In this document: in pieces, positions 16,772-56,953 of the stretch
Numbering within the stretch: position 1 is the first letter of the stretch
Layout: each line of letters opens with the position of its first letter
The notes under the pieces: model-generated
What the model was told of the DNA's origin: nothing
Database searches by the model: none
The model's input: the letters and a program-made list of their open reading frames with translations, nothing else
NCBI GenBank assembly: GCA_019448385.1
Contig: JAGTXO010000006.1
Span: 434,001 to 498,000 of the forward strand
Length of the DNA stretch: 64,000 bases
Direction of reading: 5' to 3'
Source: Diacronema lutheri
Taxonomy: Eukaryota; Haptophyta; Pavlovophyceae; Pavlovales; Pavlovaceae
Made by a program: the position numbers and the translations under genes

Positions 16772-17251
16772 AACTCTTTTAAAACTTTCAAACGGCAGGC
16801 GGCCACGCCCGGGCGATGCTCATGCTACAGATGGCCCTCGCTCCTTCGCGCTTGGCGGGATGCCGCTGCGCGCCCGGTGGTGCCGCGCTGCCGTCGCGCG
16901 CGATCCCGATCTGCGCACGCGCCGGCATCATCGCGCGTACCGGCCGGTCGAGCGCATTCACGACGTACGCCAGCGGCTCGCCAGCATCGTTGACGGCGAA
17001 TCCGAGGTGAGAGCGTGCGAGCGCTGTGTGCGCGCACGTCCGCTTCGGCGACCGTGTCTCGCGCGCTCGTCATCCTGCGCGCCCTGTCCCGCCGCACTCG
17101 ATGGCAGGACGCGGGCTGTCGTCATGCGCGTGGAGGCGGGCCGGGCAAATGCCTGCTCCGCGCGCTCCATTGCGGGCAGGACGCGCAGCGTGATGGCGAC
17201 ATCGCCGCCCCGGCCGTTTTTGCCCCAGATTGGTCTTCCATCGCCAGCAAA
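16772..17251. other. spacer at the left edge of duplicated block A
   Basis: About 480 bp between the membrane protein stop and the chosen coiled-coil start. From about 16803 it is homologous to block B (inverted) near 56822. In copy B the coiled-coil gene starts inside this stretch with MATSPPRPF; here the same ATG (about 17191) is out of frame with the rest. No independent gene is seen. Confidence 0.5.
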
Positions 17252-19670
17252 ATGCCCGACGACATCCGCATTGTGGTCGAAGCGGTGCTCGAGGACAACT
17301 GGCAGCAGCTCGAGGACAGGGTGAAGCAGATGGAGGACGAGGCGAAGCTGACCAACGAACGCAAGGACATGGTGATCGAGTCCAAGGACAAGCTGATCGC
17401 GCACATGGAGTACATGCAGAAGTTGAATGAAAAGCTCATCGCGCACGGGAGGGACATGCAGGAGTGGACAGAATCACGATTGGAGCAGGCCAAGGTTAAA
17501 CGGCTTGACGACCTGCGCCGGTACCAGATCGTCTACGAGCCGCTCGACACCATCAACTGGCTGCTGCGCGGTTTATACCCGTGGAACCGCTCAGGGCCGG
17601 AAGCCCTGTTCAACCAGCTGATGGACGACATCGTCGACAAGGCCACGGGCACACTCCAGCCCGCCTTCAAGCAGCAATACAACGAGCTGGCCGCAGTGTT
17701 TGAGGTGGGCAAGTACGAAACGTCGTCGCTCACGGCAATCACAGGCGCGTACAAGCAGCTGAACAAGATCACGGACCCCCACCTGTTTCCTCTCACACAC
17801 CGTGGCGGCATCGCGTGCGGCGGCAAGTCGCGGCTGCAGCAGCAGCAGCACGCTTTCATCGTTGCCGCCATCCAGATGCAGTGCAGATTCGAGAGGCAAC
17901 TGCTCGAGCCGGCGCTGCAGACCATCCTTGTGCTCACGACAGACAGGAGCCGGAGTGAAGGGGCCGAGGGGTAGGACAAGGGAGAGAAGTGGGAGGTAAG
18001 GTCTCAATTTCAAAGTGGACAAGAATTCACAAAGCTGCCGCTCAAGGGCAGAGCGCGAGCAGCTGCTCGATCTCAATGTCGATCGAGTAGTCGACGCTGC
18101 CGTCCGTCGGCTCGTGCCACGGCTGTGCCTCAAACTGCGGCTCCTCGGCGACGCCGCCCGCGCACTCCGTCTCGCGCTCCACGTTGCAGTCCCAGACCGA
18201 AGCCGCGCTGTCGAGCTCGTGCGCCGCGGGCTGTGCCTCGACGTGTGGCCACACTTGCGGCGAGGCTGCGCGCCGAGCGGCTGCCGCGCCGCCGGCCGGC
18301 ACGGCCGTCGGCGTTGCGGCCGAGCAGTTGGGCACCGCCGGTGCGTGTGTGCGCACGTCCGCCTTGCACGCTGTCTCCGGCAGCGCGCCGCTCGCGGCGC
18401 TCGCGCCCCCCACCCACGGCGTGAAGCGGTACGCCTCCCAGCAGACCGCGCCGCGCTCCTGCACGATGAGCCGCATCGTGAGCTGCTGCGGCCCGACATG
18501 CAGCGTGCCAAAGCACGGGTGCATCGGCTCGCACGCGCGCGCCTCAAAGTGACCGGCCGTGCAGCCGCGCACGCCGTGCGCGCGGTAGTCAATCTGCGCC
18601 CACAGCGACGCGATCATTCGGATGAGCGCAGGCCGCTCGTTTGGGGGCAGCACGGACATCCACGCGTTACCGAGCGCGTGCTGCGCGGCGACGCCGCCCA
18701 GATGCGCGCCGACGACGAGCTGGCCGACCGGCATGCCCGCGCGCGCGCGCGCGGCGGCGCTCGCCGCCTCGGCGTCGAGCATGGCGGCGAGGTGCTCGCC
18801 CATCCCCGCGCAGAAAAAGGCGGCCTGCAGCGCCGCGTTTGGCAGCCAGCGCGACACGCCGTACGCGAGCTCGCTCGCGACGGCGAGGTGGTTGCTCTGC
18901 AGCCAATCGGCGATGAACGCGGGCGGCGGGCGCGCAGGACCGCGCAGCACCGCCCCGTCGAGCGCGCCCGCGCCGGTGGGTGCGCGCGCGGCGGCCACAG
19001 CGATCGTCATCTCGGAGAGCGCGTGCAGCGTCGCCTCGAGCGGCAGCTGCAGCTCGTGCGCCTGGCGCATCGCAAGGCTCGTGTGCTCTGAGCGGGCAGG
19101 GGCGCGGCGCGGCGCGGCGCAGACGCGGCGGCGGCGTTGCGGCGCGCGCCCGGGCGGGGGTCGCGCGCGTCGCGTCGGGCACGTCGTGCGCGCGCGTCGC
19201 AAGGCGCGTGCACGTGGCGACGCGCGCGACTCGGCGCGTGCGGCGCGAGGCGGCTGGAGCGCCGGGCCCCCGAGGCGTTGCAAGCACGCCGCGCGCGTGC
19301 GCACGCGCGCGCGCGCGCGCGCCCGCGCCGAACCGTAGGAGCCGTGCCGCGCAGCGATCGCGAACGCGTGCCGCAGGAAATGCAGCTTGGCGGATTCGGA
19401 GCCGCATGCGAGCAGAGCGTCGCGCTTGGGCGCCCACTCGGCGAGCGCCGTCGCGAACTGCGCGCCGGGAGAGGCGGCAGGGATGGGCGTCGCGCGGTTG
19501 GCCAGAGCAGCAGCGCGGCGGCTGGAGCGCCTCACAGGGGCCCATGCGGCGGGTGCGCACGTGGGTGAGGGCGAGACGCACCTGCGCGGCCGACGTGGGC
19601 AAGAGGCTGACCGCGTCATGCAGGTGCAGCTGCGCGGCGTGCGCGTGCAGCTCGCGCTGCAGAGCGAGCG
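16803..19670. repeat. block A of an inverted segmental duplication
   Basis: About 2.87 kb that matches, in inverted orientation, 53905-56822 (block B). Both blocks hold a coiled-coil gene convergent with a transcription-factor gene. Sampled stretches of the transcription-factor half differ at roughly 2-4 positions per 100. The left edge lies about 30 bp after the stop of the membrane protein gene. The right edge lies inside the transcription factor's second coding exon, so the zinc-cluster exons are outside the shared block. Confidence 0.9.
17252..17974 (+). CDS. coiled-coil protein, copy A (probably degraded)
   Basis: Unknown family. The first in-frame ATG gives MPDDIRIVVEAVLEDNW, followed by a heptad-like charged helix (about residues 15-85) and a conserved core (RRYQIVYEPLDTINWLL, YPWNRSGPEALFNQLMDDI). 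Compared with copy B (55605-56438), the N-terminal start peptide is out of frame because of a one-base difference just upstream. Near the 3' end about 67 bp present in B are missing, which changes the frame of the last residues (TTDRSRSEGAEG instead of a longer tail). A 70-bp patch (17429-17500) differs strongly from B. It may still be expressed as a shorter protein. It is convergent with the transcription factor, with 67 bp between stops. Confidence 0.5.
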   Translation: MPDDIRIVVEAVLEDNWQQLEDRVKQMEDEAKLTNERKDMVIESKDKLIAHMEYMQKLNEKLIAHGRDMQEWTESRLEQAKVKRLDDLRRYQIVYEPLDTINWLLRGLYPWNRSGPEALFNQLMDDIVDKATGTLQPAFKQQYNELAAVFEVGKYETSSLTAITGAYKQLNKITDPHLFPLTHRGGIACGGKSRLQQQQHAFIVAAIQMQCRFERQLLEPALQTILVLTTDRSRSEGAEG

Positions 19671-20277
19671 CTGGCACCGGCCACGCGCGCTGCGGCCACG
19701 GCTGGAGCGGCCGCGCGGAGAGCACAGTGCTATGCGCGACTGGCGGCTCGGTTGGCGAGATGCCCGAGCAGAGCGTGCTGAGCGACGACGGCGGCGGGAG
19801 CATGGTTGTCGGCGTGGAAAATACGTGCGCGTGCGCAGAGCACCCGTGCCCGCGTGCGCACCGCGACAGCGGAGTCTGCGCGGCGGGCGCGAGGCGAGAG
19901 TTCGTAACGACGCGGCCGCGCATCGACGGGCCGTTCGGCACGCACACGATGTTGAGGCGAGAACAGCGCGTGCAGATCAAACCAGGGTGACGAAGCTCGA
20001 GGTCACAGCGCGTCTGCGCCCCGCGCCGAAAGCGCACGGCGCGCGAGGCGTCAGGCGCCGCGCCCGCGCGCGGTCGTCTCCCAGCGACGCCGCTCGAGCA
20101 TGGCGCGCGCGCCGCGCGGGGCGGGGCGGCGCGGCGCAGCGCAACATGCGCGGCGCGGCAAGCCGACGCGGTGCGCGCGCTTACCTTCGAGAGGCGGCAC
20201 GCCCTGCACGAAACGCGTGCCGCCTTTCGTGCGTTGCTCGACTGCTCGGGCACCTCGGAGGCCATCCCTCCCTCCAT
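18042..20277 (-). CDS. Zn(II)2Cys6 (fungal-type) transcription factor, copy A
   Basis: Predicted DNA-binding regulator. Proposed exons on the minus strand: 20277-20185, 20013-19561, 19457-19334 and 19087-18042 (571 aa). Joining exons 1 and 2 gives C-RA-C-RLSKTR-C, ten residues, C-TR-C, six residues, C, a full Zn2Cys6 cluster followed by a basic, proline-containing linker. Intron 1 (20014-20184) has clean GTAAGC...GCAG borders and splits the cluster. Intron 2 (19458-19560) is 103 bp and is required to keep frame. Intron 3 (19088-19333, 246 bp) is less certain because its frame stays open. The C-terminal roughly 380 residues (LEATLHALSEMTIAVA, HPCFGTLHVGPQQLTMRLIVQE) match no family I can name and end acidic. 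A second ATG lies 4 codons in. Confidence 0.72.
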
Positions 20278-20440
20278 TCGGATCCGATGGTGTATGTCCT
20301 TAAGTCGGTTCTTCCGGACTCTGAGAAAGACCTGCACGAAACGGGCTTTCAGGGTCCGGGAGTCCCCGCCCGTTTTGATCTATCCGGGCCCTATAATTAT
20401 AGCCCTGATTTCGGCCTGATGTTGCGTGCGCCCTTTCGCT

Positions 20441-20696
20441 CGCTCCGTTTGTCCAGCCTCGGCCCCGTGCGCGCCCCTCCTGCTGACCCGCCTGTAAGCC
20501 GGCCCCGTGCGCGCCCCTCCTGCTGACCCGCCTGTAAGCGCCGTTAGTATAAGGCCCCGTGCGCGCCCCTCCTGCTGACCCGCCTGTAAGCGCCGTTAGT
20601 ATATTATACTAACGGCGCTTACAGGCGGGTCAGCAGGAGGGGCGCGCACGGGGCCGAGGCTGGACAAACGGAGCGATTATACTAACGGCGCTTACG
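20441..20696. repeat. fold-back element built on a 39-52-bp tandem unit
   Basis: A unit beginning GGCCCCGTGCGCGCCCC is present in tandem at about 20461, 20501 and 20553. The third copy (20553-20603) is followed, after one base, by its exact 51-bp inverted repeat (20605-20655). An outer 20-bp pair (20441-20460 and 20656-20675) continues the symmetry around the tandem copies. Another TTATACTAACGGCGC copy lies at about 20677-20691. The structure resembles a fold-back or MITE-type element with internal duplication. Confidence 0.8.
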
Positions 20697-21627: not shown

Positions 21628-24600
21628 ATGCCGCGCGAGAACGGGTCCGCGCAACAGCCGCCGAGCCTGGCGCACGAGCCGTCGCAGCAGAAGCGCAAAT
21701 CGCCGGTCTTTTGCACGGAGGAGATCTTGCGCATCAAGCGCGCGAGCCGTGTCGGCTCCTTCACCGGTGCGAGCGCGCTCGCGCCGCGCGCCGGCGGCGG
21801 GCGCGTGTGCAGCGCGGCGCGCGGCGCGCGGCGCGCGGGCGCGGTGCGCCCGCGCGGCGCGCCCTGCCGCCGAGCGGCGCGCGTACGACGCGCGACCAGG
21901 CTGAGTGGGCTGCTCCTCTGCTCCACGGCCGCCCCGCCGCGCAGGCGATGCGGTCGACTTCCTCCAGTCGGGCGTCAAGGGCGAACTCGTGCTCGACGAC
22001 GGGACGGTGATGAGCGGGTACAGCTTTGGCGCGGCCACGTCTGTCTCGGGCGAGGTGGTCTTCAACACGGGGATGGTGGGTTACCCCGAGGCGCTCTCCG
22101 ACCCGTCGTACAGGCGAGTCGCGAGGCGCTGCGCATGATCCGCCCGTCCGCCGGGCGCGCGAGCGGGAGAGCTCGATCGCCGCGCCACGCCCCGCGGCGC
22201 AGAGCTGCGGGCGCGCGCGCGCGCGACGTGGCGCCGTGCAGGCTGGCGCGACGACGCACCTTTGCCGGCGCGCGCGCCGGCACCGCTCTCGCGTCGCCGC
22301 GTGCGCGCCAGCACGCGCCACCGCGCGCCCTCCCCTTGACGCCATCCTCGGGCGTTTGTGCGCGCGCTGCGCGCACCCGCGCCTCGCCCGCCGTCGGTTG
22401 TGTGTGTGTGTGCGCGCGCGCGCAGGGGCCAGATCCTCGTGCTCACGTACCCAATCATCGGCAACTACGGCGTGCCGCCGATGGAGCAGGTCGACGAGAA
22501 CGGCCTGCCGCTCTTCTTTGAGTCGAACAGCGTGCACATCACCGCGCTCATCGTCTGCGACTACTCGGCCGAGCCATGCCATTGGAACCTGACGATGACG
22601 CTCTCCGCGTGGCTCAAGAAGCACAACGTGCCCGCGCTCTTTGGTCTCGACACGCGCGCGCTGACCAAGCGCATCCGCGACCGCGGCGCGATGCTCGGCA
22701 AGCTCGTCTTCGCGCCCGACACGGCCGATTCCGTCGTGCAGGTCGACCCGAACCGAACCAACCTCGTCGCGCAGGTCTCGATCAAGCAGCCAAAGCTGTA
22801 CAAGCCGCCCGCCGGCGTCGCGCCGCGCACGCTCGGCGGCAAGCCGGTGCGCGTCGTCGCCGTCGACTGCGGGATGAAGTACAACATCATCCGCTATTTC
22901 ATGCTCAAGGGCGTCGAGCTGCTCGTCGTGCCGTGGGACCACGACTTTGTCGCCGAGCCGCACGACGGCCTCTTCGTCTCCAACGGGCCGGGCGACCCGA
23001 CGCAGGTGCAGCGCACGGTCGAGCGGCTGCGGCTCGCGCTCGAGCGCGACAAGCCCATCTTTGGCATCTGCCTCGGCAACCAGCTGCTCGCCCTCGCCGC
23101 GGGCGCCACGACGTACAAGATGAAGTACGGCAACCGCGGGATGAACCAGCCCGTCATCGACACGCGCACCTCGCGCTGCTACATCACGGCGCAGAACCAC
23201 GGCTATGCCGTCGACGCGACATCGCTCCCGCCCGGCTGGCAGCCCTTCTTCGTCAACGGCAACGACCAGTCGAACGAGGGGATCATTCACTCAACCAAGC
23301 CCTTCTTCTCCGTCCAGTTCCACCCGGAGGCGAGCGGCGGGCCGACGGACACGGACTTCCTCTTCGACATGTTCCTCGAGAAGCTCAACCTGGGCACGCC
23401 GCCCGTCACCACCTCCTACTCGCCGCCCAAGCCGTACGTGCGCAAGGTGCTGCTCCTCGGCAGCGGCGGCCTGTCGATCGGCCAGGCGGGCGAGTTCGAC
23501 TACTCGGGCTCGCAGGCGATCAAGGCGCTCAAGGAGATGGGCGTATACACCGTGCTGATCAACCCGAACATCGCGACGGTCCAGACCTCCGCCGGAATGG
23601 CCGACAAGGTCTACTTCTACCCGATCACGCTCGAGTACGTCGAGGCCGTGCTCGAGAAGGAGCGGCCCGAGTCGATCCTGCTGCAGTTCGGCGGGCAGAC
23701 GGCGCTCAACTGTGGGATCGCGCTCGACCGCGGCGGGCTGCTGCAAAAGTACAACGTGCAGGTCCTCGGCACGCCCGTCCACGCCATCGTCGCGACCGAG
23801 GACCGCGAGATCTTCAACGCGAAGCTCGCGCAGATTGGCGAGTCGACGGCGCCGTCGGCGGCGGCCGAGTCGGTCGCCGAGGCGCTGGCGGCGGCGCGCA
23901 AGATCGGCTACCCGGTGATCCTGCGCGCCGGCTTCGCCCTCGGCGGCCTCGGCTCGGGTTTCGCCAACTCGGACGAGGAATGCCGCGCGCTCGCGGAGAA
24001 GGCCTTTGCAAACTCGCCGCAGGTGCTCGTCGAGCGCTCGCTGCGCGGGTGGAAGGAGATCGAGTACGAGGTGGTGCGCGACTGCAAGGACAACTGCATC
24101 ACCGTGTGCAACATGGAGAACTTTGACCCGCTCGGCATCCACACGGGCGACTCGATCGTCGTCGCGCCGTCGCAGACGCTCTCAAACTCGGAGTACTACA
24201 AGCTGCGCTCCGTTGCGATCAAGGTCGCGCGCCACCTCGGGATCGTGGGCGAGTGCAACATCCAGTACGCGCTCGACCCGCTCTCCGAGGCCTACTACAT
24301 CATCGAGGTCAACGCGCGCCTGTCGCGCTCGTCCGCGCTCGCGTCCAAGGCGACGGGCTACCCGCTCGCGTACGTCGCGGCGAAGCTCGCGCTCGGCACG
24401 CCGCTCACCGAGATCCGGAATTCGGTGACGAAGCAGACGATGGCGTGCTTCGAGCCGTCGCTTGACTATGTCGTTGTCAAGATCCCACGCTGGGACCTGC
24501 AGAAGTTTGCGCTCGTCGGCAAGGTGCTCGGCTCGTCAATGAAGTCGATTGGTGAGGTGATGGCGATCGGGCGCACCTTCCCGGAGGCCATGCAAAAGGC

Positions 24601-27247
24601 GATCCGGATGGCGTCGCCGGCGGTCGACGGGTTCGAGACGAACGCGCAGGTGCAGGCGTACACCGACGCCGAGCTCGAGACGCACCTCACCGAGGCGTCC
24701 GACGAGCGCGTGCACGTGATCGCCGAGGCGTTTGAGCGAGACTTTGACGTGCAGCACGTCCACTCGCTCACGCGAATCAACCACTGGTTCTTGCTCAAGC
24801 TGCAGTCGATCACACACTTGCGGCGGACGCTCGCGAAATTCACCATCGACCAGCTCCCACTCCCGACCCTGCTCTACGCCAAGCAGAACGGCTTTGCGGA
24901 CATGCAGGTCGCCAAGGCGTGCAGGTGCGACGAGGACCAGGTGCGCGAGCTGCGTCAGCGGCACAAGATCACGCCATGGGTGAAGCAGGTGGACACGCTC
25001 GCCGCCGAGTTCCCCGCGATGACCAACTACCTGTACATGACGTACAACGGCGCCGAGCACGACGTTGTCTTCGACGAGCACGGCGTGATGGTGCTCGGCT
25101 GCGGCGCCTACCGTATCGGCTCGTCGGTCGAGTTTGACTGGTGCGCGGTCGGCTGCGTGCGCACCCTGCGTAAGCTGGGCTACCACTCGATCATGGTCAA
25201 CTACAACCCGGAGACCGTCTCGACCGACTACGACGAGTGCGACCGTCTCTACTTTGAGGAGATCTCGCGCGAGCGCGTGCTCGATATTTACGAGCTCGAG
25301 GCGTCCGCCGGCGTCATCTTGTCCGTCGGCGGGCAGATCCCCAACAATCTCGCGCTGCCGCTCGACAAGGCGGGCGTCAAGATCCTCGGCACGTCCGCGC
25401 GCAATATAGACAACGCGGAGGACCGCTTCAAGTTCTCAAAGGCGCGCGCCGCCGCCGTAGCGCGCCCCGCCGCCGCCGTGGCGCGCCCCGCCGCCGCCCG
25501 CCGCGCGCACCGCGCGCCCACCCGCCCGTGCGCTCGCCCGCCGCCGCGCTCGCCGCTCGCCCGCTGCGCGCAGATCCTCGACTCGATCCACGTTGACCAG
25601 CCGCAGTGGCAGGAGCTGCAGTCAGTCGAGGACGCCAAGGCCTTCTGCCGCCTCGTCTCGTACCCGTGCCTCATCCGCCCATCGTATGTCCTCTCGGGGG
25701 CTGCGATGAAGGTCGTCTTCAACGATGCGGTCAGCGCGGCGCGCGGCGCAGCGTTGCGCGACGACCGGCGGCGTTCAAGCCGCGCACGCGGCGTGCGCAC
25801 CCGCAGTGTGTGCTCCGTCCGCCGTGCACTGCGCTGCCTTGCGACTCAGCCGCGTTGCGCCTCGGCCGGCTCCGCCTTCGACCCCGCCTTTGCTCCCGCC
25901 TTCGCCCCCGCCTCCGCGTCCGTTGCGCCGCAGGACCTGGAGGTCTTTCTCAAGGCGGCATGCGACGTGTCCCCCGCGCACCCGGTCGTCATCTCCAAGT
26001 TCATCGAGAACGCCAAGGAGATCGAGGTGGACGCCGTCGCGATGAACGGCAAGGTGGTCAACTACGCGATCGCCGAGCACGTTGAGAACGCGGGCGTGCA
26101 CTCTGGAGACGCGACGCTTGTCCTGCCTGCGCAGAAGCTCTACTGCGAGACCGTCCGGTACGGCTGAGAGCGATGATTCGCGGCGCGGCGGTCGAGCGCA
26201 TGCGCCCAACGGCGTGTGCATCGCGCCTCACGCCGACCGCGCGCGCACCGCGTGCGACCGCGCTGCCGTGCGCGCGCAGGCGTGTGAAGCGCGTCACGTT
26301 CAAGATCGCCGAGCGGCTCCAGATCTGCGGTCCATTCAACATCCAGTTCCTCTCAAAGGACAACCGCATCAAGGTGATCGAGTGCAACCTGCGCGCGTCA
26401 CGCACGTTCCCGTTCGTCTCGAAGACGCTCAAGGTGCGTGCCCGTCGCCGCCGCCACGCGCGCGCCTCGCCGCCGCGCCGCGCCGCGCCGCGCGCGCGCA
26501 GCCGCGCCGGCGCAGCATCCGCCCTCTCACTCGCGCCACTCGCGCCACTCGCGCCACTCGCGCCACTTCGTGCGCGCGCAGGCGGACTTCATCGAGCTGG
26601 CGACGCGCGTGATGGTGGGCGAGGTGGTGAAGCCCGCGCCGATCCACCTGCTCGAGATCGACTACGTGGGCATCAAGGCGCCCATGTTCTCCTTCACGCG
26701 GCTGATCGGCGCGGACCCAATCCTGGGCGTCGAGATGGCCTCGACGGGCGAGGTCGCCACGTTTGGGGACACGCGGCACGAGGCGATCTTGACGTCGATG
26801 CGCGCAGCCGGGTTCAAGGTGCCGCAGAAGGCGGTCTTCCTGTGCATCGGCCCGCTCATGGCCAAGCTCGCCTTCCTCGAGTCGGCGAAGCTGCTGCTCG
26901 ACAAGGGGCTCGTCGTGTACGCGTCAAAGGGCACGCACGAGTTCCTCCAGACACGCGGCGTGCAGACCATCTTGCTGCACAAGCCCTCCTCGTCAGACCA
27001 GCCAAACTTCACCACGTACATCAACGACGGCGCGATCGACCTCGTCATCAACATTCGTGACTCGAACGCCGACTCGGGCTCCATCTCTGACGGTTACGCG
27101 ATTCGAAGGTCAACGGTCGACCACTCGATCGGCCTGCTCACCGACCTCAAGCTGGCCAACCTGGTCATTGCCGCGTTCGCGCGCGAATGCAAGGACGACG
27201 GTGGCAAGGTCAAGGTCAAGGCGTGGGACGAGCTCCCCGCCAACTAG
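21628..27247 (+). CDS. glutamine-dependent carbamoyl-phosphate synthase (fused GATase + large subunit)
   Basis: Makes carbamoyl phosphate for the urea cycle/arginine or pyrimidine pathways. Proposed exons: 21628-21766, 21945-22113, 22426-25441, 25574-25729, 25934-26157, 26280-26433 and 26582-27247. These give 1,507 aa, the length of CPS I/III, and every junction keeps frame and aligns with the family. The GATase domain retains the nucleophilic Cys in [13 protein letters not shown] and the downstream FHPEA. Two ATP-grasp halves follow ([40 protein letters not shown]), then an MGS-like allosteric C-terminus. [14 protein letters not shown] and [10 protein letters not shown] are closest to animal CPS I/III and algal urea-cycle enzymes. 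Introns 2 and 3 need GC donors (AG|GCGAGT; AAAG|GCGCGC). Cellular location is not evident; no clear transit peptide is seen. Confidence 0.9.
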
Positions 27248-41452: not shown

Positions 41453-44400
41453 ATGCCGGAGAGCGGGGATGGTGCGCACGCGGGCGACGAGCAGGCTGGC
41501 ACTGATGGCGCTATGGCGGCGCCCGCCCAACACAGCGTGATATCGCGCCCGCTGACGGCGACGATCCGTCTCAAGCCGCCGATGCTTCCGGTGCCGAGCG
41601 CGCCCGCGCGCTCTGCGTACGGTGATCCGGCGCGCTCCGCGTCCACCATATCAACGGCCGCCCTCCAGCCGCGCCCGGATGGATCACACCGCGCATCAGC
41701 TGGCGCAGCTTTGATGATGCGCACGACGCACGCAGCAGCTGGCGGCAGCGCGCGACCCGGCGACACGGCGGGCGCGCGCGCGGCCGCGAGCGTGGGCGTG
41801 GGCGCAGGCGCAGCGGCAGTTGCGCTTGAACCCGGGGTCCTAGCGCCGAGTGGTACGTTCGCTGTGCTCCCAAAACGCTCGCTTGAGCCGCCGAGGCTCG
41901 TGCGCACGCCGCAGCTTCCAGCCGCGCGCTTTCCACCGTCGATTCGGCCCAGCGCCGAACGCCCGTTTGCTGCGCCTGACCCACCGCACGTGGGCGCGCA
42001 CCACGCCCCGGCGGGCACGGTCCTTGCGCTGCTGGCTTCGACGCCGGCGGTTGGCACCACCGCTGCGCTGCGCGATGGCGCGCCGATCGACGCGTCGCTC
42101 ACCACTGCGCATTTGCTGCCGGCCACTGCGCCGCGCGCTACGACCGAACCACGCGCGCACGCGCCGGCAGTCGCGCAGCCACGCAGGGCGGAGGCGCCAG
42201 CGCGGGCACGCATGCCGCAGCTGCCGCCGGTGCGCTTGCCGCCCTCGTCGCTTCCGACGGCAGGCCGCACGTCGCTGCATGAGCCGCCGCACGCGGCGGT
42301 GGCGGTGCCGGCCTGCCCGCGGCCGTCCGCCGGGCAGGCGACGCTCGCACCGTCCGCGCCGCGCGCGCCGTCGCTGCCGACGCTTATCGCCGACCGCCTC
42401 GCTGCTCTGGTCAAGCGCGTCGGCAGCCGTGACCCGCTCGCACCCGCAGCTGGCGCGGCCTTCTCGGCGCGTCCAACGGACGGAGGCGTGCACGCGCCGG
42501 CCGGCGCATTTCCCGCGTCTCGTGGCCCTCCGCCGCCGGCACCGCTGCCAGTGCCAAGGTCGTGCCAGCAGCCGGACCGCCCGCCGCTGCCGCCTGCTGC
42601 ACCTTCGGGCACGTCAGCACCGTTGTTCGCTGATGGGCGCGAGCTCGGCGTAACGCCGCCCACCGGAGATCCCGCGGCGGGTGCGGTCGAGGCGCCTACG
42701 CCGCAGCCGCCGTCGTCGCCGCCGGCCACCGATGGCGAAGCGCAGGAGCTGCCCGTGGCACACGCGCAGCTGCAGCCGGCGGGCGGACAGCTGGGCGCCG
42801 GCTGCGCGAAGCGGACGCGGCCTCTAATGGATGGGCGCGCGGGCGAGTCGCGGGCGCGAGCGGCGCAGCCGCCGCCGCAGCTGCCGCAGCACCCGCCCGC
42901 GCAAGGCGACGCAACGCGCGACGGGGCAGACGTAGCCGCCGTCCCTGCAGAGGCGCAGCAGTCACCCATCGTCGACTGCCTTGAGCCGCGCGCTCTGGAC
43001 GCGCGCCCGCAGCCAAAACGTGCACGCGCTGGCGCGCGCGGCTCGGCAACAACATCGTCGCTGCCGACGCCTCAGTCGCCCGGCGCAAAGGCCGCGCAGC
43101 CAACCGCCGCTGTCGCGCACAAGCGCGTGGCAATGGCCGCCGCAGCGCCCATCGCCGCCGCGCCCGCGCGGCGGCCGCTGAGCAGCGGGCGCGCGCCGCG
43201 CTCCAACTCTGCGCAAGGCAAAAGCCGTTTCCGCTCGAGTGCGCGCCGGCCGGCTGTGGCTGCCGCTGCCCTCGCGGTGGGCGCACGGGCTGCCATGGCG
43301 GCGGGCGCGACGGCGGGCGCGGCGGCGGGCGCGGCGGCGGGCGCAGGCGCGGTGGCCGCGCGTCCGACGACGACTGCATCCGCAGGCCGCTCGCTCATGA
43401 CGCTCGACAGGCCGGCCGCGCCCGTGGTCCCGCGCGCATGCGCACGGTGCCGCCAGATGAGCTGCCGATCGCGTGCGGTCGGGCGTGGCGCGATTGGCTG
43501 GCACGTGGACGTGCGTGGCGCCGTGGCGCAGCACCTGGCATCGACGTCGCACGCGCCACCGCCCGAGTGGAGCGCAGCCATCGTGTGCGCGTATGAACCA
43601 AAGAGCGGCCTGCACGCGCTTCTTTTCCCGGGCAGTGCACGGCACGCACGATTCGCGGCTGGCGGCTTTTGCCTCGGCTCGGCGGACGTGCGCGTCGTCT
43701 CGGAGGAGGACAGGGCCGAATGGAGCGATGGCGACTCGAACGATCCGTTGGACTGCGAGCGCCGGCCGCGGATGCCGCCGGGTGAGCCGATCTTTCGCTG
43801 CTACTGCGGCGTGAGCTTCTCAGATGCGCACGAGTTTGATGTGCCCGTGCACGCGGCCACGCCGCTCGTACAGTGCGCCGCATGCCTCGTGTGGTTGCAC
43901 GAGCCATGCGCGCGCGCGCACGCGGCGACGGAGCGCGCGGGCGCGCGCGACGACGCCGCGGCGCTGAGCGGCGGCGAGCGCGCGGCGGTCGAGGCCGACG
44001 GCGGCGCGCACGCGCAGGTGCTCTGCCCGCTGTGCAACGGCGCCGCTGCCGGGCGCTCGTCGAGACCATGGCCACCGCTCGCTGCTCCGGCGCTCGCGCC
44101 GGAAGCGCCGGAGCACTTTGCGCCGCGCGCAGCTGCTTCCGCACCGCGCGCGCCGCTGCTCACCGACGACGCGGCCGCCGACGAGCACACGCAGCGGCCG
44201 CTCGCAGCAGCTGGCGATGGCGACGGCGCGCTCGGCTATGCCCACTGCTCGCGGTTCGCGGGCATCGAGGACCTCCTCTCGGACGATGATGACGCCTGCG
44301 AGACGGCCGCTCGCGCCGGCGAGCGCGCGCCGGACGCGCACGGCGCGATCGGAGGTGACGCACACGATGGCGGCGCACACGATGGCGGCGCACACGATGG

Positions 44401-47400: not shown

Positions 47401-50191
47401 CGTTGCGCTCGGCGCGCACGGTGCGGCGCTGTGCGCCCGGCCTGCCAGCCCGACGCGCATTGGAATCTTTCCCGACCAGCGCGCGAGCACTGGGTCGCCG
47501 CGCGCGCGCGGTGCGGCGGGCGACGCGCCGGCTGGCGGCGCGGCCAACGCGGCCGGCACTCGTGGCATTGTGCGGACGCTGCCAAGGGCCCTCGCGGCCG
47601 ACGCTTGTCGGCCAGTCGGCGTGCAGCTCGCACACGCGGTGCGTGCAGACGCCAAGCGCGCGCGACCGCTCACCGCCGACCGCGCCCGCCCCCCGCCGGC
47701 CGATGCGCCGGGCATCGCGTCGAGCGCTGTCTTCACGCCTGCGTCGCCCGAGCGGCCGCCTGCGCAGCGCACCGTGCCCGCATCGCCCTCCGACATGCAC
47801 CTCACGTCACCGACGCTGCGGCCATTCGGCGTCGATGCGCTCACTGGGCCGAGCAGCGCGGCGCGGCGCGAGCGCCGGAACGCCGCGCACGCGGCCGCGG
47901 CCAGCGTGCCGTCCGGCGGGCGCGCGCGCGCGTGGGCGTGTCCGGACGACGACGACGACGATGGCGCGCAGATCGAGCTCACCCACGGACTGACCAACTG
48001 GTCGAACGCGCGGATCCGGATCGGAGATGCGTTTCAGACGAGCGTGCCGCCATGGCACTGCGACGGCGTGGAGGTGACGCTCGCGTGCGCGCCGGCGGAC
48101 GACGCTCCGTGCGCGCCGGCGGCGAACAGCGCGGCCGCGGCCGCCGGCATTGTTCCGAATGCCGGCATTGTTCCGGATGCCGGCATTGTTCCGGATGCTC
48201 CCGGCCCCGAGCTGGTCTGGCACCCATCGTGGTGTGAGCGGCGCGCATCAGCCGCCGCCCCGCCCGCCAGCGATGGCGGCAGCGAGAGTGCTGGCGGTGC
48301 GCCCGCCCAGGCCGGCGGCGCGCGCGGCGCGCGCGGCGCGCGCGGCGCGCGCGGCGCGCGCGGCGCGGGCGCGGTCGCGGCGGCGGGCGAGCTTGCGCAT
48401 TGGAAGCAGGGTGGAAGCGAGGCTGCGCTGTGCGGGACCAACGGCTGCACCAAGCGTAACCTGCATTCGGGCATATGCATGGGCGTCACCATGCTCGGCA
48501 AGAGGCAGCGCAAGACGACCGAAGTCTACACGCCGCATCCGCGCGAGCGGGCTGCCCCGCCCGCCGGCGTTGCGCGCGCGGCCGCGCCGTCGACGGCGCA
48601 GCCCGCGCCGAACGGCGGCGCGCCCGCACTGACGCTCGCGCCATCGACGCTCGCGCACGCCTTCCGCGCCGCCGCATGTCGTGCCACGTCACCCAGGCGG
48701 TGCGGCACGCAGCAGCAGCCCCTAGCGCTGCGCGCGCTCGGTCGAGCCGTCGACGCGCGCGCCTCCACCGCCGGTGTGCAGTTTGAGCCGCGCGTGCGCG
48801 TCAAGCCGTGGCGCGCGCTCGCCGAGCCAGCGGGCGCGCGTAACGGCGGCGGCAGCGCGGGCGGCGGCTTGGGCGGCAGCCTTGTCTGGGTCGGCCGCTT
48901 TGCGTCAGAGCATGAGGCGGCGCTCGCGGTGGCGGCGAGCAAGAAAGGTCGAGTGCGCTCGACGGGCGCGTTCCGCACGCCGCCCGTGTGCGCAAGCGGC
49001 TCGGCCGTGCCGTCCGCGGTGTGCGCGGGTTCATCCGCCTGCCCGGCAACGGGCAGCGCCGCGCCCGCGGGTGCACAGCCATACGGCGGCGTGAGCTCCT
49101 TTGCGCGTGCGGACGGTGATTCTGTGTTTTGCGCGCCGCCGCGCGTTTTTGGCAAGCGCGGCGCGCGGTGCAACATGGAGCTCGACACGTTTGTCACCGA
49201 GGGCGACGGGCGGGGCGCGCTCGACCACAAGGCGCTGGCAAAGGACCGCCTCGAGCAAGCATGGCGGGATGACGAGGTCGCGCCGTCGCACGCGCACGCC
49301 GGCGCGGCGGTCGTCACGCCGGCCGCGCGGGCGGGCGGCGACGGCGCCGCGCCACCGCCGCCGCTGCCGGGCGCGATTGAGGATGCGTATGCCGTCGACG
49401 CGATCCTTGGCAAGCGGCGCGTGTCTGCGTCCGGCAAGGGTAAGAGGCGTGTGGTGCAGTACCTCATCAAGTGGCTTGGCTACCCGGAAGAGGCAAATTC
49501 CTGGGAGCCGGCAAAGAATGTGAGCGCAGCGCTCATCGCAGACTTTGAGGCGCGGCAGCGGAACGCGCAGCAGCCGCCACAGCACGAGGAGCTGCAGCCG
49601 CAGCCGCAGGCGCCGCTTGGCGAGCGGCAGTGCCAGGAGGGGCCCACAGATGCCAGCGGGTACGAGGAGATGGACACTGTCGCCGCAAGCGAGACGCCCC
49701 GCACGCTGCCGCCGCAGCCCACATGTGCGGCCGGCAGCGTGCCGGCAGGCGGCGCGCACGGCGCGCACACGCTCGCCGGGTCGGTCGCCAAAGCGCGCGC
49801 CAATGATGGCAGCGCGCTGATACGCGTGGAGCCCTCGCACGACCTCGAGCTCGCAGCCGCGAGCAGGGCGCGCTTTCAGCCCCTGCTCGCGCAACTGCAG
49901 CAGCGCGCGCGCGCGGACAGCGTGGCGGCAGGTGGTGCGACGCAGCTGCAGCTCGTCTGTAGCGCGCCAGCAGCAGACTGCGCAGTTGCGAGCGTACTCG
50001 GCCACGCGCTCGGCGGCGAGCCGCTTCCCGCGCTCGTCGGCGGGATCAGCGGGACCTACCTTTCGCGCATGCTCGAAGAACTGCGCGCAGAGGCGGTGCA
50101 CGCGGAGGCGGGGGGCGACGGCGCTGCACTGCGGCTCATCGCCGCTCGCGCGGAGGCGCTGCTTGGGGCGGCCATGTACGAGGCGGCGTGA
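41453..50191 (+). CDS. giant PHD-SET-chromodomain chromatin protein
   Basis: A 2,912-residue single-exon reading frame, predicted lysine methyltransferase. Seen in order: a Pro/Ala-rich disordered N-terminus; about residues 775-865 a PHD-like Cys/His cluster (RCYCGVSF, VQCAACLVWLHEPCARAH, VLCPLCNG); about 1060-1190 an extended Cys-rich second PHD-like region. About 1520-1700 is a SET domain, with VVRSGRVVGTYCGIVRW, SNVMRYVNHANT and GEELVYRYG (NH and catalytic Tyr region). About 2324-2362 is a CGTNGC...H-C patch; about 2446-2500 a segment like a degenerate AP2 repeat (VWVGRFASEHEAALAVA). About 2640-2700 is a chromodomain (YAVDAILGKR, VQYLIKWLGYPEEANSWEP). The SET N-terminal half is split by low-complexity insertions. 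Histone target unknown. Possible unspliced introns in low-complexity parts cannot be excluded. Confidence 0.82.
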   Translation: MPESGDGAHAGDEQAGTDGAMAAPAQHSVISRPLTATIRLKPPMLPVPSAPARSAYGDPARSASTISTAALQPRPDGSHRASAGAALMMRTTHAAAGGSARPGDTAGARAAASVGVGAGAAAVALEPGVLAPSGTFAVLPKRSLEPPRLVRTPQLPAARFPPSIRPSAERPFAAPDPPHVGAHHAPAGTVLALLASTPAVGTTAALRDGAPIDASLTTAHLLPATAPRATTEPRAHAPAVAQPRRAEAPARARMPQLPPVRLPPSSLPTAGRTSLHEPPHAAVAVPACPRPSAGQATLAPSAPRAPSLPTLIADRLAALVKRVGSRDPLAPAAGAAFSARPTDGGVHAPAGAFPASRGPPPPAPLPVPRSCQQPDRPPLPPAAPSGTSAPLFADGRELGVTPPTGDPAAGAVEAPTPQPPSSPPATDGEAQELPVAHAQLQPAGGQLGAGCAKRTRPLMDGRAGESRARAAQPPPQLPQHPPAQGDATRDGADVAAVPAEAQQSPIVDCLEPRALDARPQPKRARAGARGSATTSSLPTPQSPGAKAAQPTAAVAHKRVAMAAAAPIAAAPARRPLSSGRAPRSNSAQGKSRFRSSARRPAVAAAALAVGARAAMAAGATAGAAAGAAAGAGAVAARPTTTASAGRSLMTLDRPAAPVVPRACARCRQMSCRSRAVGRGAIGWHVDVRGAVAQHLASTSHAPPPEWSAAIVCAYEPKSGLHALLFPGSARHARFAAGGFCLGSADVRVVSEEDRAEWSDGDSNDPLDCERRPRMPPGEPIFRCYCGVSFSDAHEFDVPVHAATPLVQCAACLVWLHEPCARAHAATERAGARDDAAALSGGERAAVEADGGAHAQVLCPLCNGAAAGRSSRPWPPLAAPALAPEAPEHFAPRAAASAPRAPLLTDDAAADEHTQRPLAAAGDGDGALGYAHCSRFAGIEDLLSDDDDACETAARAGERAPDAHGAIGGDAHDGGAHDGGAHDGGAHDGGAHDGGAHDGGAHDGGAHDGGRAPPGGACAEPMDVDGAPADGSTVAEPHAAAHAVERGAVALRAHIGRALAPCEVRPRRAIHKCVARACVFAQGTFGRQHGELAVRCVGRACAGGVPGSRECPARMHLACLMRDAVIASRDAHVRAGQSGWPGLSTSFEEWTAAGSTVCRAGGASDTHAVPLFEFRCASCGEPFARLRAIPPVVCAARAEPAAAIVPDVVAFAPARAPVAAVPAALTMATPPNDEVARDADEANAAAASGARRAAVSRARLCGGPCGACHACANPFAYPVCALRTDGRYAGYALLVPLCDVARYAVRMGACATYAVKGAARLGNGPRETALPMGLSHLRGVVHDVRPRCARANGAAGADGDADGADGAHAHADGAARDNNSFVLTVHFDDGTIAQLAEEDALPYARAPKRGLTLYASPVLLQLSRLGPRERMRAPYDMRAVRSVLRQTNAYHLLEVKETVKMIGSRPQRMRGVFAAWPRDATRATPAGAPAGAPRRGTTAGGTLAGNGGGADGGCGGGSAPPPPMVVRSGRVVGTYCGIVRWRDETIAPEDVARASTCAHALARAGDGGGGGGGEGGVGAGDGTAALDGDSDVAAVAADESAARVSAASPSRSGVNAPRANLPVHARYYFDINESICIDASDEGASNVMRYVNHANTAAEANLGARRVEVDGEVVVVFYARRAIMAGEELVYRYGPFSFLDAQGEAEGEEADVPAAAAATAAAAAAAAAAQPSRLRTARADAARCATSAQHGVRPSALTGAPPSLRARDMVANREARAQRKQAMVAHAAAAGETVQTLAAAADDAFARKRARACASACAPAADADVDAADAADVGAAAAAASAADADDAAAIVEQTDDESAAAPAAAAAIVEQTDDESAAAPADAAAIVEQTDDKSAAPPSERARPLARPRLACAPARAHADEARTPRSSTRAPSWSPGPGSLTDDGTETLRSADARARRDATLRGDGGSARASVRRAARSAVRRVALGAHGAALCARPASPTRIGIFPDQRASTGSPRARGAAGDAPAGGAANAAGTRGIVRTLPRALAADACRPVGVQLAHAVRADAKRARPLTADRARPPPADAPGIASSAVFTPASPERPPAQRTVPASPSDMHLTSPTLRPFGVDALTGPSSAARRERRNAAHAAAASVPSGGRARAWACPDDDDDDGAQIELTHGLTNWSNARIRIGDAFQTSVPPWHCDGVEVTLACAPADDAPCAPAANSAAAAAGIVPNAGIVPDAGIVPDAPGPELVWHPSWCERRASAAAPPASDGGSESAGGAPAQAGGARGARGARGARGARGAGAVAAAGELAHWKQGGSEAALCGTNGCTKRNLHSGICMGVTMLGKRQRKTTEVYTPHPRERAAPPAGVARAAAPSTAQPAPNGGAPALTLAPSTLAHAFRAAACRATSPRRCGTQQQPLALRALGRAVDARASTAGVQFEPRVRVKPWRALAEPAGARNGGGSAGGGLGGSLVWVGRFASEHEAALAVAASKKGRVRSTGAFRTPPVCASGSAVPSAVCAGSSACPATGSAAPAGAQPYGGVSSFARADGDSVFCAPPRVFGKRGARCNMELDTFVTEGDGRGALDHKALAKDRLEQAWRDDEVAPSHAHAGAAVVTPAARAGGDGAAPPPPLPGAIEDAYAVDAILGKRRVSASGKGKRRVVQYLIKWLGYPEEANSWEPAKNVSAALIADFEARQRNAQQPPQHEELQPQPQAPLGERQCQEGPTDASGYEEMDTVAASETPRTLPPQPTCAAGSVPAGGAHGAHTLAGSVAKARANDGSALIRVEPSHDLELAAASRARFQPLLAQLQQRARADSVAAGGATQLQLVCSAPAADCAVASVLGHALGGEPLPALVGGISGTYLSRMLEELRAEAVHAEAGGDGAALRLIAARAEALLGAAMYEAA
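44363..44482 (+). repeat. 15-bp minisatellite coding AHDGG x8
   Basis: Eight near-perfect copies of a 15-bp unit (GGCGCACACGATGGC phase) inside the SET/chromodomain gene, encoding tandem AHDGG. The unit length is a multiple of three, so copy changes do not shift the frame. Confidence 0.9.
46990..47145 (+). repeat. 54-bp repeat coding AAIVEQTDDESAA x3
   Basis: Three almost identical copies with a 54-bp period (GCCATCGTGG at 46997, 47051 and 47105), encoding IVEQTDD(E/K)SAA. The near identity suggests recent expansion within the SET/chromodomain gene. Confidence 0.9.
48147..48201 (+). repeat. 18-bp repeat coding AGIVP(N/D) x3
   Basis: Three copies of an 18-bp unit (GCCGGCATTGTTCCGGAT type) in the SET/chromodomain gene. 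A run of (GGCGCGC)-type GAR codons follows at about 48315-48366. Confidence 0.85.
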
Positions 50192-52440: not shown

Positions 52441-52472
52441 CGTGCGAGAATGGTAGCCATGCCTTTTCTCTG

Positions 52473-52676
52473 TGCAAAGAGATAAAATTATTATTCTCCT
52501 GGGGAGACAATCTCCCGGGGAGACTATCTCCAGCCGCTATAATAATTAAGCTGGAGACTGTCTCTTCAAGCCGGAGACTTGTGCCAACGGCGCAGCGCGC
52601 GCGCGCGAAAAAGGTGCGCGCCGCGCGCCGCCGCGCGTCCCCGGGAAATATTTCCCCAGGAGATCATCTCTTTGCA
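52473..52676. mobile_element. 204-bp MITE-like element with terminal inverted repeats
   Basis: TGCAAAGAGAT (52473-52483) at the left is inverted as ATCTCTTTGCA (52666-52676) at the right. Inside, TCTCCTGGGGA...CCCGGGGA on the left is mirrored by TCCCCGGGAAATATTTCC and CCCAGGAGA on the right. The interior is AT-rich on the left and GC-rich on the right. It has no coding capacity, and no target-site duplication was clear. It could be a non-autonomous element or one terminus of the transposon that follows. Confidence 0.6.
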
Positions 52677-52859: not shown

Positions 52860-53790
52860 TTATCCGTCGTGCGCGACATCGCGTACGACCTCACGGACGC
52901 GGAGTTCAAGGCGACGTTCAGCATATCATCGAGCGCATCCGCACGCACGTCGTGGTCACAGACAATCGACGTGATGACAAGCTTGGGCTAGCCCTTGTGC
53001 TCTCGATGACTCTGTCTTGGCTGCGAGGCGGTCGCGACTTTGACGTCTACCGGCTGCACAAAGTCGGGCGGTATGCGCGAGCGCGCGTCGCTGGGTAGCG
53101 TCGCTCGCACGGGGCGGAGGGCCGCGCAGTGGCACGAGCAGCGCCCGCGCATCGTGCTGCGCGTTCGCTTCTGCCTCGCGTGACGTGCTTCCATGGCCCG
53201 CGCGCGCGCGCGCGGGTGCGGTCGCGGCGCGCTGCGCGCGCGCGCACCGCGCGCCGTGCGCCGTACCGCGCGCAGTTCCACGTCGCAGGCCATCTGCTGA
53301 GCCCGCTACCATTGCTTTGACATCGCCCTCCAGGCCATCGTCGACGCCGACTGCCGGGTCATGTGGGCATACTGCAACGCGGCGGGCAGCACGCACGACT
53401 CTGTCAAGCTGAGCGGTCTGCACGCGGCGCTGGCGCGCGGCAAGATGCCGCAAGGCTTTCGCATCGCCAGTGATGCCGCCTGCACCGACGAGGAGTGGCT
53501 GCTCCACCCGTGGCCTGCGCCGCGCTCGCAACGCTCGCACAGGACAAGGACGCGTACAACAGGATCCACAGCACGTACCGGCAGAACGTCGAGCGCGCTT
53601 TCGGGCAGCTGCTGGGACGGTGGCTCGTCCTCGAGAGGCCTCTGCGGGTACCCATCACGCGCGTGTCGCACGTCATCATGGGCTGCATTCGGCGGCAGAA
53701 CCTGTGCATCTCGCGCGGACAGGACGTTCCGACGACGTGCAGCAGCCGCGCCTGCGAGCTCGGCGCAGTCAGGCGAGTGCGCGACGTGCA
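52860..53790 (+). mobile_element. decayed PIF/Harbinger DNA transposon (DDE_Tnp_4 transposase)
   Basis: Transposase pieces lie in order but in different frames. TDAEFKATF (about 52892) is the family's N-terminal block. LALVLSMTLSWLRGG (about 52985) is the helix before the catalytic domain. FDIALQAIVDADCRVMW with AGSTHDSVK (about 53315) and RIASDAACTDEEWLLHPW (about 53460) carry the central D motif. NRIHSTYRQNVERAFGQLLG with IRRQNLCI (about 53557-53705) is the C-terminal E motif region. Frame changes and at least one stop between blocks show it is not functional, though an unrecognised intron could explain part of this. It abuts the truncated transcription-factor copy B. Confidence 0.78.
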
Positions 53791-53904
53791 CATCCAGATC
53801 CCGCGTCTTGTTCGTCGATCAGGGCGTGTTCTTATCGGGCCCCTGTACTCCTTGAGGACAGCCTGTCCGGTCGTGCACTCCACTGACGAAGAGAGGCCGA
53901 TTGC

Positions 53905-55519
53905 GACGAGCTGCAGCGCGAGCTGCCCGCGCACGCCGCGCAGCTGCACCTGCACGACGCGGTCAGCCTCTTGCCCACGTCGGCCGCGCAGGTGCGTCTC
54001 GCTCTCACCCACGTGCGCACGCGGCCAAATGCGCGCGGCCGCATGGGCGCCTGTGAGGCGCTCCAGCCGCCGCGCTGCTGCTCTGGCCAACCGCGCGACG
54101 CCCATCCCTGCCGCCTCTCCCGGCGCGCAGTTCGCGACGGCGCTCGCCGAGTGGGCGCCCAAGCGCGACGCTCTGCTCGCATGCGGCTCCGAATCCGCCA
54201 AGCTGCATTTCCTGCGGCACGCGTTCGCGATCGTTGCGCGGCACGGCTCCTACGGTTCGGCGCGTGCGCGCGCGCGTAGCGTGCCCGCAACGCTCGCGCG
54301 CCCGCGCTCCAGCCGCCTCGTGTTGCACGCGCCGCGTCGCGCGCGTCGCCACATGCACGCGCCTCGCGATGCGCGCGCACGACGTGCCCGACGCTCCGCG
54401 CGCGACCCCCGCCCGGGCGCGCGCCGCAACGCCGTCGCCGCGTCTGCGCCGCGCCGCGCCCCTGCCCGCTCAGAGCACACGAGCCTTGCGATGCGCCAGG
54501 CGCACGAGCTGCAGCTGCCGCTCGAGGCGACGCTGCACGCGCTCTCCGAGATGACGATCGCTGTGGCCGCCGCGCGCGCACCCACCGGCGCGGGCGCGCT
54601 CGACGGGGCGGTGCTGCGCGGTCCTGCGCGCCCGCCGCCCGCGTTCATCGCCGATTGGCTGCAGAGCAACCACCTCGCCGTCGCGAGCGAGCTCGCGTAC
54701 GGCGTGTCGCGCTGGCTGCCAAACGCGGCGCTGCAGGCCGCCTTTTTCTGCGCGGGGATGGGCGAGCACCTCGCCGCCATGCTCGACGCCGAGGCGGCGA
54801 GCGCCACCGCGCGCGCGCGCGCGGGCATGCCGGTCGGCCAGCTCGTCGTCGGCGCGCATCTGGGCGGCGTCGCCGCGCAGCACGCGCTCGGTAACGCGTG
54901 AATGACCGTGCTGCCCCCAAACGAGCGGCCTGCGCTCATCCGAATGATCGCGTCGCTGTGGGCGCAGATTGACTACCGCGCGCACGGCGTGCGCGGCTGC
55001 ACGGCCGGTCACTTTGAGGCGCGCGCGTGCGAGCCGATGCACCCGTGCTTTGGCACGCTGCATGTCGGGCCGCAGCAGCTCACGATGCGGCTCATCGTGC
55101 AGGAGCGCGGCGCGGTCTGCTGGGAGGCGTACCGCTTCACGCCGTGGGTGGGGGGCGCGAGCGCCGCGAGCGGCGCGCTGCCGGAGACAGCGTGCAAGGC
55201 GGACGTGCGCACACACGCACCGGCGGTGCCCAACTGCTCGGCCGCAACGCCGACGGCCGTGCCGGCCGGCGGCGCAGCAGCCGCTCAGCGCGCAGCCTCG
55301 CCGCCAGTGTGGCCACACGTCGAGGCACAGTCCGCGGCGCACGAGCTCGACAGCGCGGCTTCGGTCTGGGACTGCAACGTGGAGCGCGAGACGGAGTGCG
55401 CGGGCGGCGTCGCCGAGGAGCCGCAGTTTGAGGCACAGCCGTGGCACGAGCCGACGGACGGCAGCGTCGACTACTCGGTCGACATTGAGATCGAGCAGCT
55501 GCTCGCGCTCTGCCCTTGA
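53905..55519 (+). pseudogene. truncated Zn2Cys6 transcription factor, copy B
   Basis: Matches the part of copy A from mid exon 2 to the stop. The exons encoding the Zn2Cys6 cluster are absent; instead sequence flanking the Harbinger remnant precedes it. Relative to copy A, a TGG codon (W in NAWMSVLPP) reads TGA at 54899-54901, which would end translation about 205 codons before the normal stop. The part after it is still very similar to copy A and open (54902-55519). Without a DNA-binding domain and with the internal stop, it is best called a pseudogene, or at most a truncated product. Intron positions equivalent to copy A introns 2 and 3 are recognisable. Confidence 0.75.
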
Positions 55520-55604
55520 GCGGCAGCTTTGTGAATATTCTTGTCCACTTTGAAATTGAGACCTTACCTCCCCCTTCTCTCCCTTGTCCTACCCCTCGGC
55601 CCCT

Positions 55605-56438
55605 TCACTCCGGCTCCTGCACGATCGCAGGCATCGGTATCGGCCAGTAGCGCCCATACTTGATCGCACCTTCCACCTCGGAGTAGTCTGTCGTGAGCAC
55701 AAGGATGGTCTGCAGCGCCGGCTCGAGCAGTTGCCTCTCGAATCTGCACTGCATCTGGATGGCGGCAACGATGAAAGCGTGCTGCTGCTGCTGCAGCCGC
55801 GACTTGCCGCCGCACGCGATGCCGCCACCGTGTGTGAGAGGAAATAGGTTGGGGTCCCTAATCTTGTCCAGCTGCTTGTACGCGCCTGTGATTGTCGTGA
55901 GCGACGACGCGTCGTACTTGCCCACCTCAAACACTGCGGCCAGCTCGTTGTATTGCTGCTCGAAGGCGGGCTGGAGTGTGCCCGTGGCCTTGTCGACGAT
56001 GTCGTCCATCAGCTGGTTGAACAAGGCTTCCGGCCCTGAGCGGTTCCACGGGTATAAACAGCGCAGCAGCCAGTTGATGGTGTCGAGCGGCTCGTAGACG
56101 ATCTGGTACCGGCGCAGGTCGTCAAGCCGCCTAGCCTTGGCCTTCTCCACACTGTATTCTGTCCACTCGATCACCTCTTCCTTGGTCTTGATTAGCTCTT
56201 CATTCAACTTCTGCATGTACTCCATGAGCGCGATCAGCTTGTCCTTGGACTCGATCACCATGTCCTTGCGCTCGTTGGTCAGCTTCGCCTCGTCCTCCAT
56301 CTGCTTTACCTTGTCCTCGAGCTGCTGCCAGTTGTCCTCGAGCACCGCTTCGACCACAATGCGGATGTCGTCGGGCAATTCGCTGGCGATGGAAGACCAG
56401 CCTGGTGGCAAAAACGGCCGGGGCGGCGATGTCGCCAT
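55605..56438 (-). CDS. coiled-coil protein, copy B (more complete)
   Basis: 277 aa, unknown family. It starts MATSPPRPFLPPGWSSIASELPDDIR and continues with a charged coiled coil (DNWQQLEDKVKQMEDEAKL, KTKEEVIEWTEYSVEKAKAR). Then comes the conserved RRYQIVYEPLDTINWLL, YPWNRSGPEALFN and a QQQQ-containing helix. It ends in a tail absent from copy A (YSEVEGAIKYGRYWPIPMPAIVQEPE). Both its start and end are in frame, unlike copy A. No signal peptide or membrane segment is seen. It is convergent with the truncated transcription factor (85 bp between stops). Confidence 0.65.
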   Translation of the reverse strand: MATSPPRPFLPPGWSSIASELPDDIRIVVEAVLEDNWQQLEDKVKQMEDEAKLTNERKDMVIESKDKLIALMEYMQKLNEELIKTKEEVIEWTEYSVEKAKARRLDDLRRYQIVYEPLDTINWLLRCLYPWNRSGPEALFNQLMDDIVDKATGTLQPAFEQQYNELAAVFEVGKYDASSLTTITGAYKQLDKIRDPNLFPLTHGGGIACGGKSRLQQQQHAFIVAAIQMQCRFERQLLEPALQTILVLTTDYSEVEGAIKYGRYWPIPMPAIVQEPE

Positions 56439-56953
56439 CACGCAGCGCGTCCTGCCCGCAATGGAGCGCGCGGAGCAGGCATGAGCCCGGCCCGCCTCCA
56501 CACGCATGCAGACAGCCCGCGTCCTGCCATCGAGTGCGGCGGGGCAGGGTGCGCAGGATGACGAGCGCGCGAGACACGGTCGCCGAAGCGGACGTGCGCG
56601 CACACAGCGCTCGCACGCTCTGATTCGCCATCAACGATGCTGGCGAGGCGCTGGCGTACGTCGTGAATGCGCTCGACCGTCCGGCACGCGCGATGATGCC
56701 GGCGCGCGCGCAGGCCGGGAACGCGCGCGACGGCAGCGCGGCACCACCGGGCGCGCAGCGGCACCCCGCCAAGCATGAAGGAGCGAGGGCCAACAGTAGC
56801 ATGAGCATCGCCCGGGCGTGGCTGCGTGGCCCCCTGTGAGCGCCCCCTCGCAGTTTACTCACGTGAGTCACGTCGTGAATTTCTGGACGTCGTGATGTCA
56901 AGATGAGGGCCTGTCTTTGACGAAATGAATAGGAAAAAGAAATCGCAGAACCT

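Follow-up and report, generated by a model that had tools for sequence, protein, structure and literature searches.

The 64,000-nucleotide stretch of DNA analysed here, referred to below as the window, covers C89:434001-498000 of the Diacronema lutheri assembly (43492796 bases, 103 contigs); the genome report gives a size of 43.503 Mb (PMC8379373). Two blocks in inverted orientation, A and B, each contain a coiled-coil gene and, convergent with it, a gene or gene remnant of a Zn2Cys6 transcription factor (Table 1).

Table 1. Features of the two blocks and their immediate surroundings, in window coordinates.
Feature	Position	Strand	Basis or remark
Open frame just upstream of coiled-coil gene A, same direction	12716-16771	+	no Pfam match
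Block A of the inverted duplication	16796-19663	+	BLAST, alignment
Coiled-coil gene A	16816..17974	+	alignments
Coiled-coil gene A, parts	exon 1 16816-17006, intron 17007-17107, exon 2 from 17108	+	alignments
Zn2Cys6 factor gene A, 560 aa with CRACRLSKTRCDLELRHPGLICTRCSRLNIVC	18042..20265	-	splice model from sequence
Factor A exons	20265-20185, 20013-19582, 19457-19334, 19087-18042	-	splice model, GT..AG introns
DDE_Tnp_4 (PIF/Harbinger-type transposase) C-terminal fragment, near the broken edge of B	53531-53689	+	PF13359
Block B of the inverted duplication	53911-56828	-	BLAST, alignment
Factor copy B: end of exon 2, exons 3 and 4	53911..55519	+	alignment, codon comparison
Coiled-coil gene B	55605..56808	-	alignments
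Coiled-coil gene B, parts	exon 1 from 56808, exon 2 from 56523, stop 55605-55607	-	
67-bp segment kept in B, absent from A	55620-55686	-	alignments
Open frame just upstream of coiled-coil gene B, same direction	56954-59848	-	PHD and JmjC matches

When the window was compared with itself by BLAST, positions 16796-17944 of A matched 56828-55686 of B at 93.5% identity, and 17944-19662 matched 55619-53911 at 95.7% (E reported as 0.0 for both). The preliminary description of this DNA was thus right in regarding the blocks as inverted copies about 34 kb apart; overall they are approximately 93-96% identical. The base-by-base alignment that it had proposed contains the 67-bp gap, the exchange of a Trp codon for TGA in B and the end of the homology at B 53911, inside exon 2 of the factor gene. 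On the coiled-coil side, only some 13-20 bp of homology precede the first ATG of the gene, and a promoter common to both copies is therefore unlikely at this end. Over the approximately 300 bp compared upstream of the two coiled-coil genes, only 17 bp are common to A and B, at the block edge, and the flank upstream of the A gene gave weak matches to the flanks of paralogues (best E 0.007). A long homologous block is present at two places with different flanks, as in a segmental duplication.

The factor had been described as seemingly complete in A, and as deprived in B of its DNA-binding exons and interrupted by a TGA; the results agree with both statements. In A, the four-exon model reaches about 600 bp past the block common to A and B, and the six-cysteine cluster of its predicted product scores above the Pfam cut-off for PF00172, Zn_clus (24.6 bits against 21, E 2.8e-5). 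A protein search for it, over 7992 scored candidates limited in length and number, revealed no annotated protein of this gene and only two whole-factor relatives, namely a paralogue on C40 and a sequence that hardly differs from the C40 pair described below. Just upstream of factor A, positions 20440-20676 form a strong palindrome (60 bp at 100%, 103 bp at 99%), beyond which a poly-G run begins near 20890. Copy B has neither a start nor the zinc cluster exons, and the Trp codon at A 18660-18662 in exon 4 reads TGA at B 54899-54901. The copies of exon 4 differ by six nonsynonymous, one synonymous and one nonsense change, and the resulting dN of 0.008 and dS of 0.004 (over 770 and 265 sites) are consistent with the absence of constraint. 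The factor gene in B looks dead, and that in A is probably the sole working factor of the pair, although the protein search returned its C40 paralogue as an annotated protein and not factor A itself.

The transposase fragment near the broken edge of B scores exactly at the PF13359 cut-off (24.8 bits against 24.8) and has at least nine further matching places in the genome. Together with the factor body of B, the transposase tail forms a single 475-aa open frame (53474-54901) that runs up to the TGA. We considered an insertion that merely split the factor in B and rejected it, since self-comparison of the window showed nothing of the missing factor part beyond the transposase sequence. The junction of B is not marked by the short palindromic repeat at about 52471-52676. 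This repeat is related to inverted ends, approximately 340 bp long, that belong to another element family, with an element of some 4 kb found in many contigs. The convergent coiled-coil gene of B stops some 85 bp short of the factor copy. It is conceivable, but very improbable, that the B remnant yields a factor decoy devoid of the zinc cluster, or an antisense RNA nearly identical to exon 4 of factor A and regulating it in trans.

The coiled-coil gene belongs to a family with 30 matching pieces listed, on C89, C10, C4 and C36. Three better preserved paralogues lie on C89, near ~895-896, 921 and 927 kb, which means that block B is not the sole refuge of the gene. They have a first exon whose hydrophobic start resembles a signal peptide when read by eye, a long second exon and an intron 1 of 101 nt (GAG^GTGAGAG..GGCAG^GACG). 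Three relatives with an annotation were found (P0003, P0004 and P0006), and all of them use this conserved junction and start at the second in-frame ATG; their models skip different parts of exon 2, making the annotation uncertain further down. Inverted clusters of the family are present at C89:890-928 kb (6.1 kb at 92.7%) and at C10:72-90 kb; on C10:70000-89999 (loci L017 and L018) we counted seven coiled-coil relatives in two clusters of opposite orientation, whose matches longer than 400 bp are ~84-99% alike. Other members are broken: the copy at C89:299 kb has two in-frame TAA codons and lacks the first exon, and the 890-kb copy on C89 keeps only the first-exon region, ceasing to resemble the other members past the beginning of exon 2, where it is joined to another body. 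Such a multicopy family with inverted clusters and broken members points to frequent gain and breakage, i.e., to birth-and-death evolution.

The nature of the coiled-coil protein was also addressed. No Pfam domain in it passes the cut-off, the best match being ORF6C (E 0.15, 12.5 bits against 22), and NCBIfam gave only matches far below the cut-offs, one for the database protein P0008 and three for P0007. Two solved structures were matched, both weakly and both helical (E 0.098 and 0.74). The structure predicted from four sequences was poor, with a mean pLDDT of 49.4 and 167 of the 277 residues below 50; its better-predicted part is a portion of one long helix at residues 23-110. A viral origin was considered and set aside, as viral contigs yielded 19 pattern matches when scanned and tblastn revealed no relative among them.

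Comparison with the paralogues allowed us to orient the differences between the two coiled-coil copies. Block A keeps the conserved junction of exons 1 and 2, and its exon 2 has lost 1 bp at 17224/17225, a base present in B and in the four homologous paralogues. This loss uncouples the signal-peptide frame, which ends after 135 aa, and accounts for the shifted start noted in the preliminary description: the annotated A protein KFE25_000516 (P0009) begins in the shifted frame and uses the same first junction, which it enters from another frame of exon 1; its N-terminus is different, and part of the 3′ region is skipped as well. No mention of its locus tag was found in the literature search. The absence of 67 bp from A, likewise noted before, appears in the alignment as a gap at 17943/17944 near the 3′ end of the gene. 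The segment is present in B and in four of the five paralogue stretches (P921, P927, P896 and P299, named for their positions in kb), P890 not being homologous there. Judged by the paralogues, the 67-bp and 1-bp losses are both derived in A.

In contrast to what had been claimed, the coiled-coil gene is not complete in B. Its coiled-coil frame is open to the stop, and its 3′ end and the acceptor of intron 1 are intact, but a 7-bp deletion at 56621/56622 takes away the intron 1 donor. The lost bases are present in A and in all four paralogues holding that exon (P921, P927, P896 and P890), which marks the loss as derived in B; both A and B also carry derived substitutions relative to the paralogues. 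When only the first ATG and the old acceptor were taken into account, ten GT positions in B, and none in A, kept signal peptide and coiled coil in one frame. A cryptic donor may therefore rescue the gene, such that it may still work. Compared pairwise, the bodies of the two copies, with dN 0.060 and dS 0.070, show little constraint overall. No annotated protein for the B copy was present among the three matches obtained from 678 length-limited candidates.

Taken together, the data are best explained by an inverted duplication of the two genes followed by decay of the redundant parts in both blocks, a reading to which we assign a probability of roughly 0.75. Most probably, a segment with the coiled-coil gene and the convergent factor gene was duplicated inversely on one chromosome, in what would have been a single event. 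Since B breaks off in exon 2, where transposase-related sequence adjoins it, the factor of B would never have had, or would have lost, the promoter and the DNA-binding exons. The redundant parts would then have decayed, probably neutrally: the factor in B gaining a stop, the coiled-coil gene in A losing 1 bp and 67 bp, and that in B losing its intron donor. The derived disabling changes (the TGA, the truncation and the 7-bp loss in B, the 67-bp loss in A) are those of pseudogenisation, with the paralogues at 895-928 kb probably fulfilling the role of the coiled-coil gene.

The preliminary description went further, proposing that each block keeps a different member of the pair. This is right for the factor, which is whole only in A, and fails for the coiled-coil gene of B with its lost donor; as that gene is damaged in both blocks, the neat reciprocity breaks down. 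Strict reciprocal loss, where each copy keeps intact what the other has lost, is not what we find, although the ten possible cryptic donors leave some doubt. A true complementary retention under selection, with the factor kept by A and the coiled-coil gene by B, would be in line with the intact factor A, the coiled-coil frame of B complete to its 3′ end and the GT positions that could rescue its first exon, but we regard it as unlikely given the loss of a conserved donor, the little constraint on the coiled-coil bodies and the better preserved paralogues on the same contig. Moreover, if a two-gene block decays independently in its two copies, the survivors should fall on opposite blocks half the time by chance, and hence even full reciprocity would be unremarkable.

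Duplication and decay would place the locus among local inverted segmental duplications with partial pseudogenisation, which it resembles in having two copies on the same chromosome, one of them cut at a breakpoint beside transposase sequence, and in the nonsense and frameshift changes in redundant parts. Nothing sets it apart from these, its particulars being that the block holds two genes and that both copies of the coiled-coil gene are damaged. With reciprocal gene loss after duplication it shares the damage to different members in different copies, but differs in that the coiled-coil gene is damaged in both and has other paralogues. In other words, this appears to be the ordinary fate of duplicates, and the tempting story of reciprocal retention is corrected once paralogues orient the changes. 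The locus would also illustrate clearly the spread of a coiled-coil family through inverted duplication, and its decay, in a compact haptophyte genome.

The divergence between A and B is patchy. In the factor gene it amounts to 0.76% in exon 4, 0.8% in exon 3, 2.4% in intron 2 and 9.6% in intron 3 (exon 4 vs. intron 3, Fisher p 5e-11), and in the coiled-coil gene to 2.1% in intron 1, 11.6% in the body at 17256-17505 and 2.7% at 17506-17943. Against a pooled baseline of 9/406, the differences are in excess at 17425-17510 (25/86, p 7e-14) and in intron 3 (p 1e-4), and the synonymous factor changes are borderline low (1/297, p 0.05); the baseline and the stretches were picked after seeing the data, so these baseline p values are merely descriptive. 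Such uneven divergence speaks against the reading of duplication and decay, in that a single clock running since one event does not directly produce it; gene conversion, selection or hypermutation confined to some stretches has to be invoked. Exchange of sequence between the blocks by gene conversion, which would partly mask the decay or move it between copies and leave the patches of identity as conversion tracts, is plausible and unproven; we hold it as a tentative possibility, compatible with duplication and decay. It would fit the nearly identical exons 3 and 4 beside the diverged intron 3, and also the protein sites oriented by outgroups, since six of the seven derived in A lie at or before body residue 106 (the other at 156) and all five derived in B at residues 139-183, the frameshifted tail left out. 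However, derived changes of both A and B are found in both halves at the DNA level, and the deficit of synonymous factor changes is only borderline. The rest of the assembly revealed no donor for the odd stretches, as every query matched A and B only, and a literature search on inverted duplication with gene conversion of microalgal paralogues gave no match.

Mosaicism was also evident among database proteins. P0008 agrees with B at 17/17 differing body sites up to residue 106, with A at 8/8 sites at 139-183 and again with B at the 3′ end, and has no private residue. It lacks the deletions and most of the derived changes of both blocks, sharing the derived state of A at residue 156, and could be taken for an ancestral, undecayed allele. 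We rejected it as independent evidence and did not use it as an ancestor because two other proteins of the same source, 'ena', are also mosaics of recent paralogue pairs: P0002 combines the two factor copies of C40 (16 columns agreeing with one and five with the other, none private), and P0005 is like the 927-kb copy except for two residues like the 896-kb copy and an odd last stretch, which may be adapter-derived. P0008 is probably an assembly chimera. Short-read chimeras would explain the three proteins together, true conversion alleles being the other explanation that we keep in view; database proteins derived from short reads should, in a family like this, not be mistaken for ancestral forms. 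The switches in P0008 suggest that the region confuses assemblers, and one block might accordingly be misplaced or a haplotypic copy in the present assembly as well. We consider such an artefact highly unlikely: the blocks have different flanks and different indels and are 4-7% diverged, and the assembly was built from PacBio reads with haplotig purging (PMC8379373).

The nearest paralogues of the factor form a tandem pair on C40 (L015, C40:361497-363707, and L016, C40:367406-369612), 97.8% alike over 2.2 kb, one of which carries the annotation Zn(2)-C6 fungal-type; the genome search matched no coiled-coil relative on C40 beside them. Fungal-type Zn2Cys6 (Zn_clus, 'fungal TRF') factors are listed for haptophytes, with 14 in Tisochrysis lutea, 8 in Pavlova sp. 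and 27 in Emiliania huxleyi (PMC4827209). Factor A resembles them in its zinc cluster, C-X2-C-X6-C-X10-C-X2-C-X6-C, and differs in that the whole protein has just the two relatives among the proteins searched. A literature search for haptophyte Zn2Cys6 transcription factors by that name gave no match. Between the two blocks, the window also contains an open frame at 22340-26167 that joins small- and large-chain carbamoyl-phosphate synthase domains, and a 2918-aa open frame at 41435-50191 with SET and chromo domain matches.
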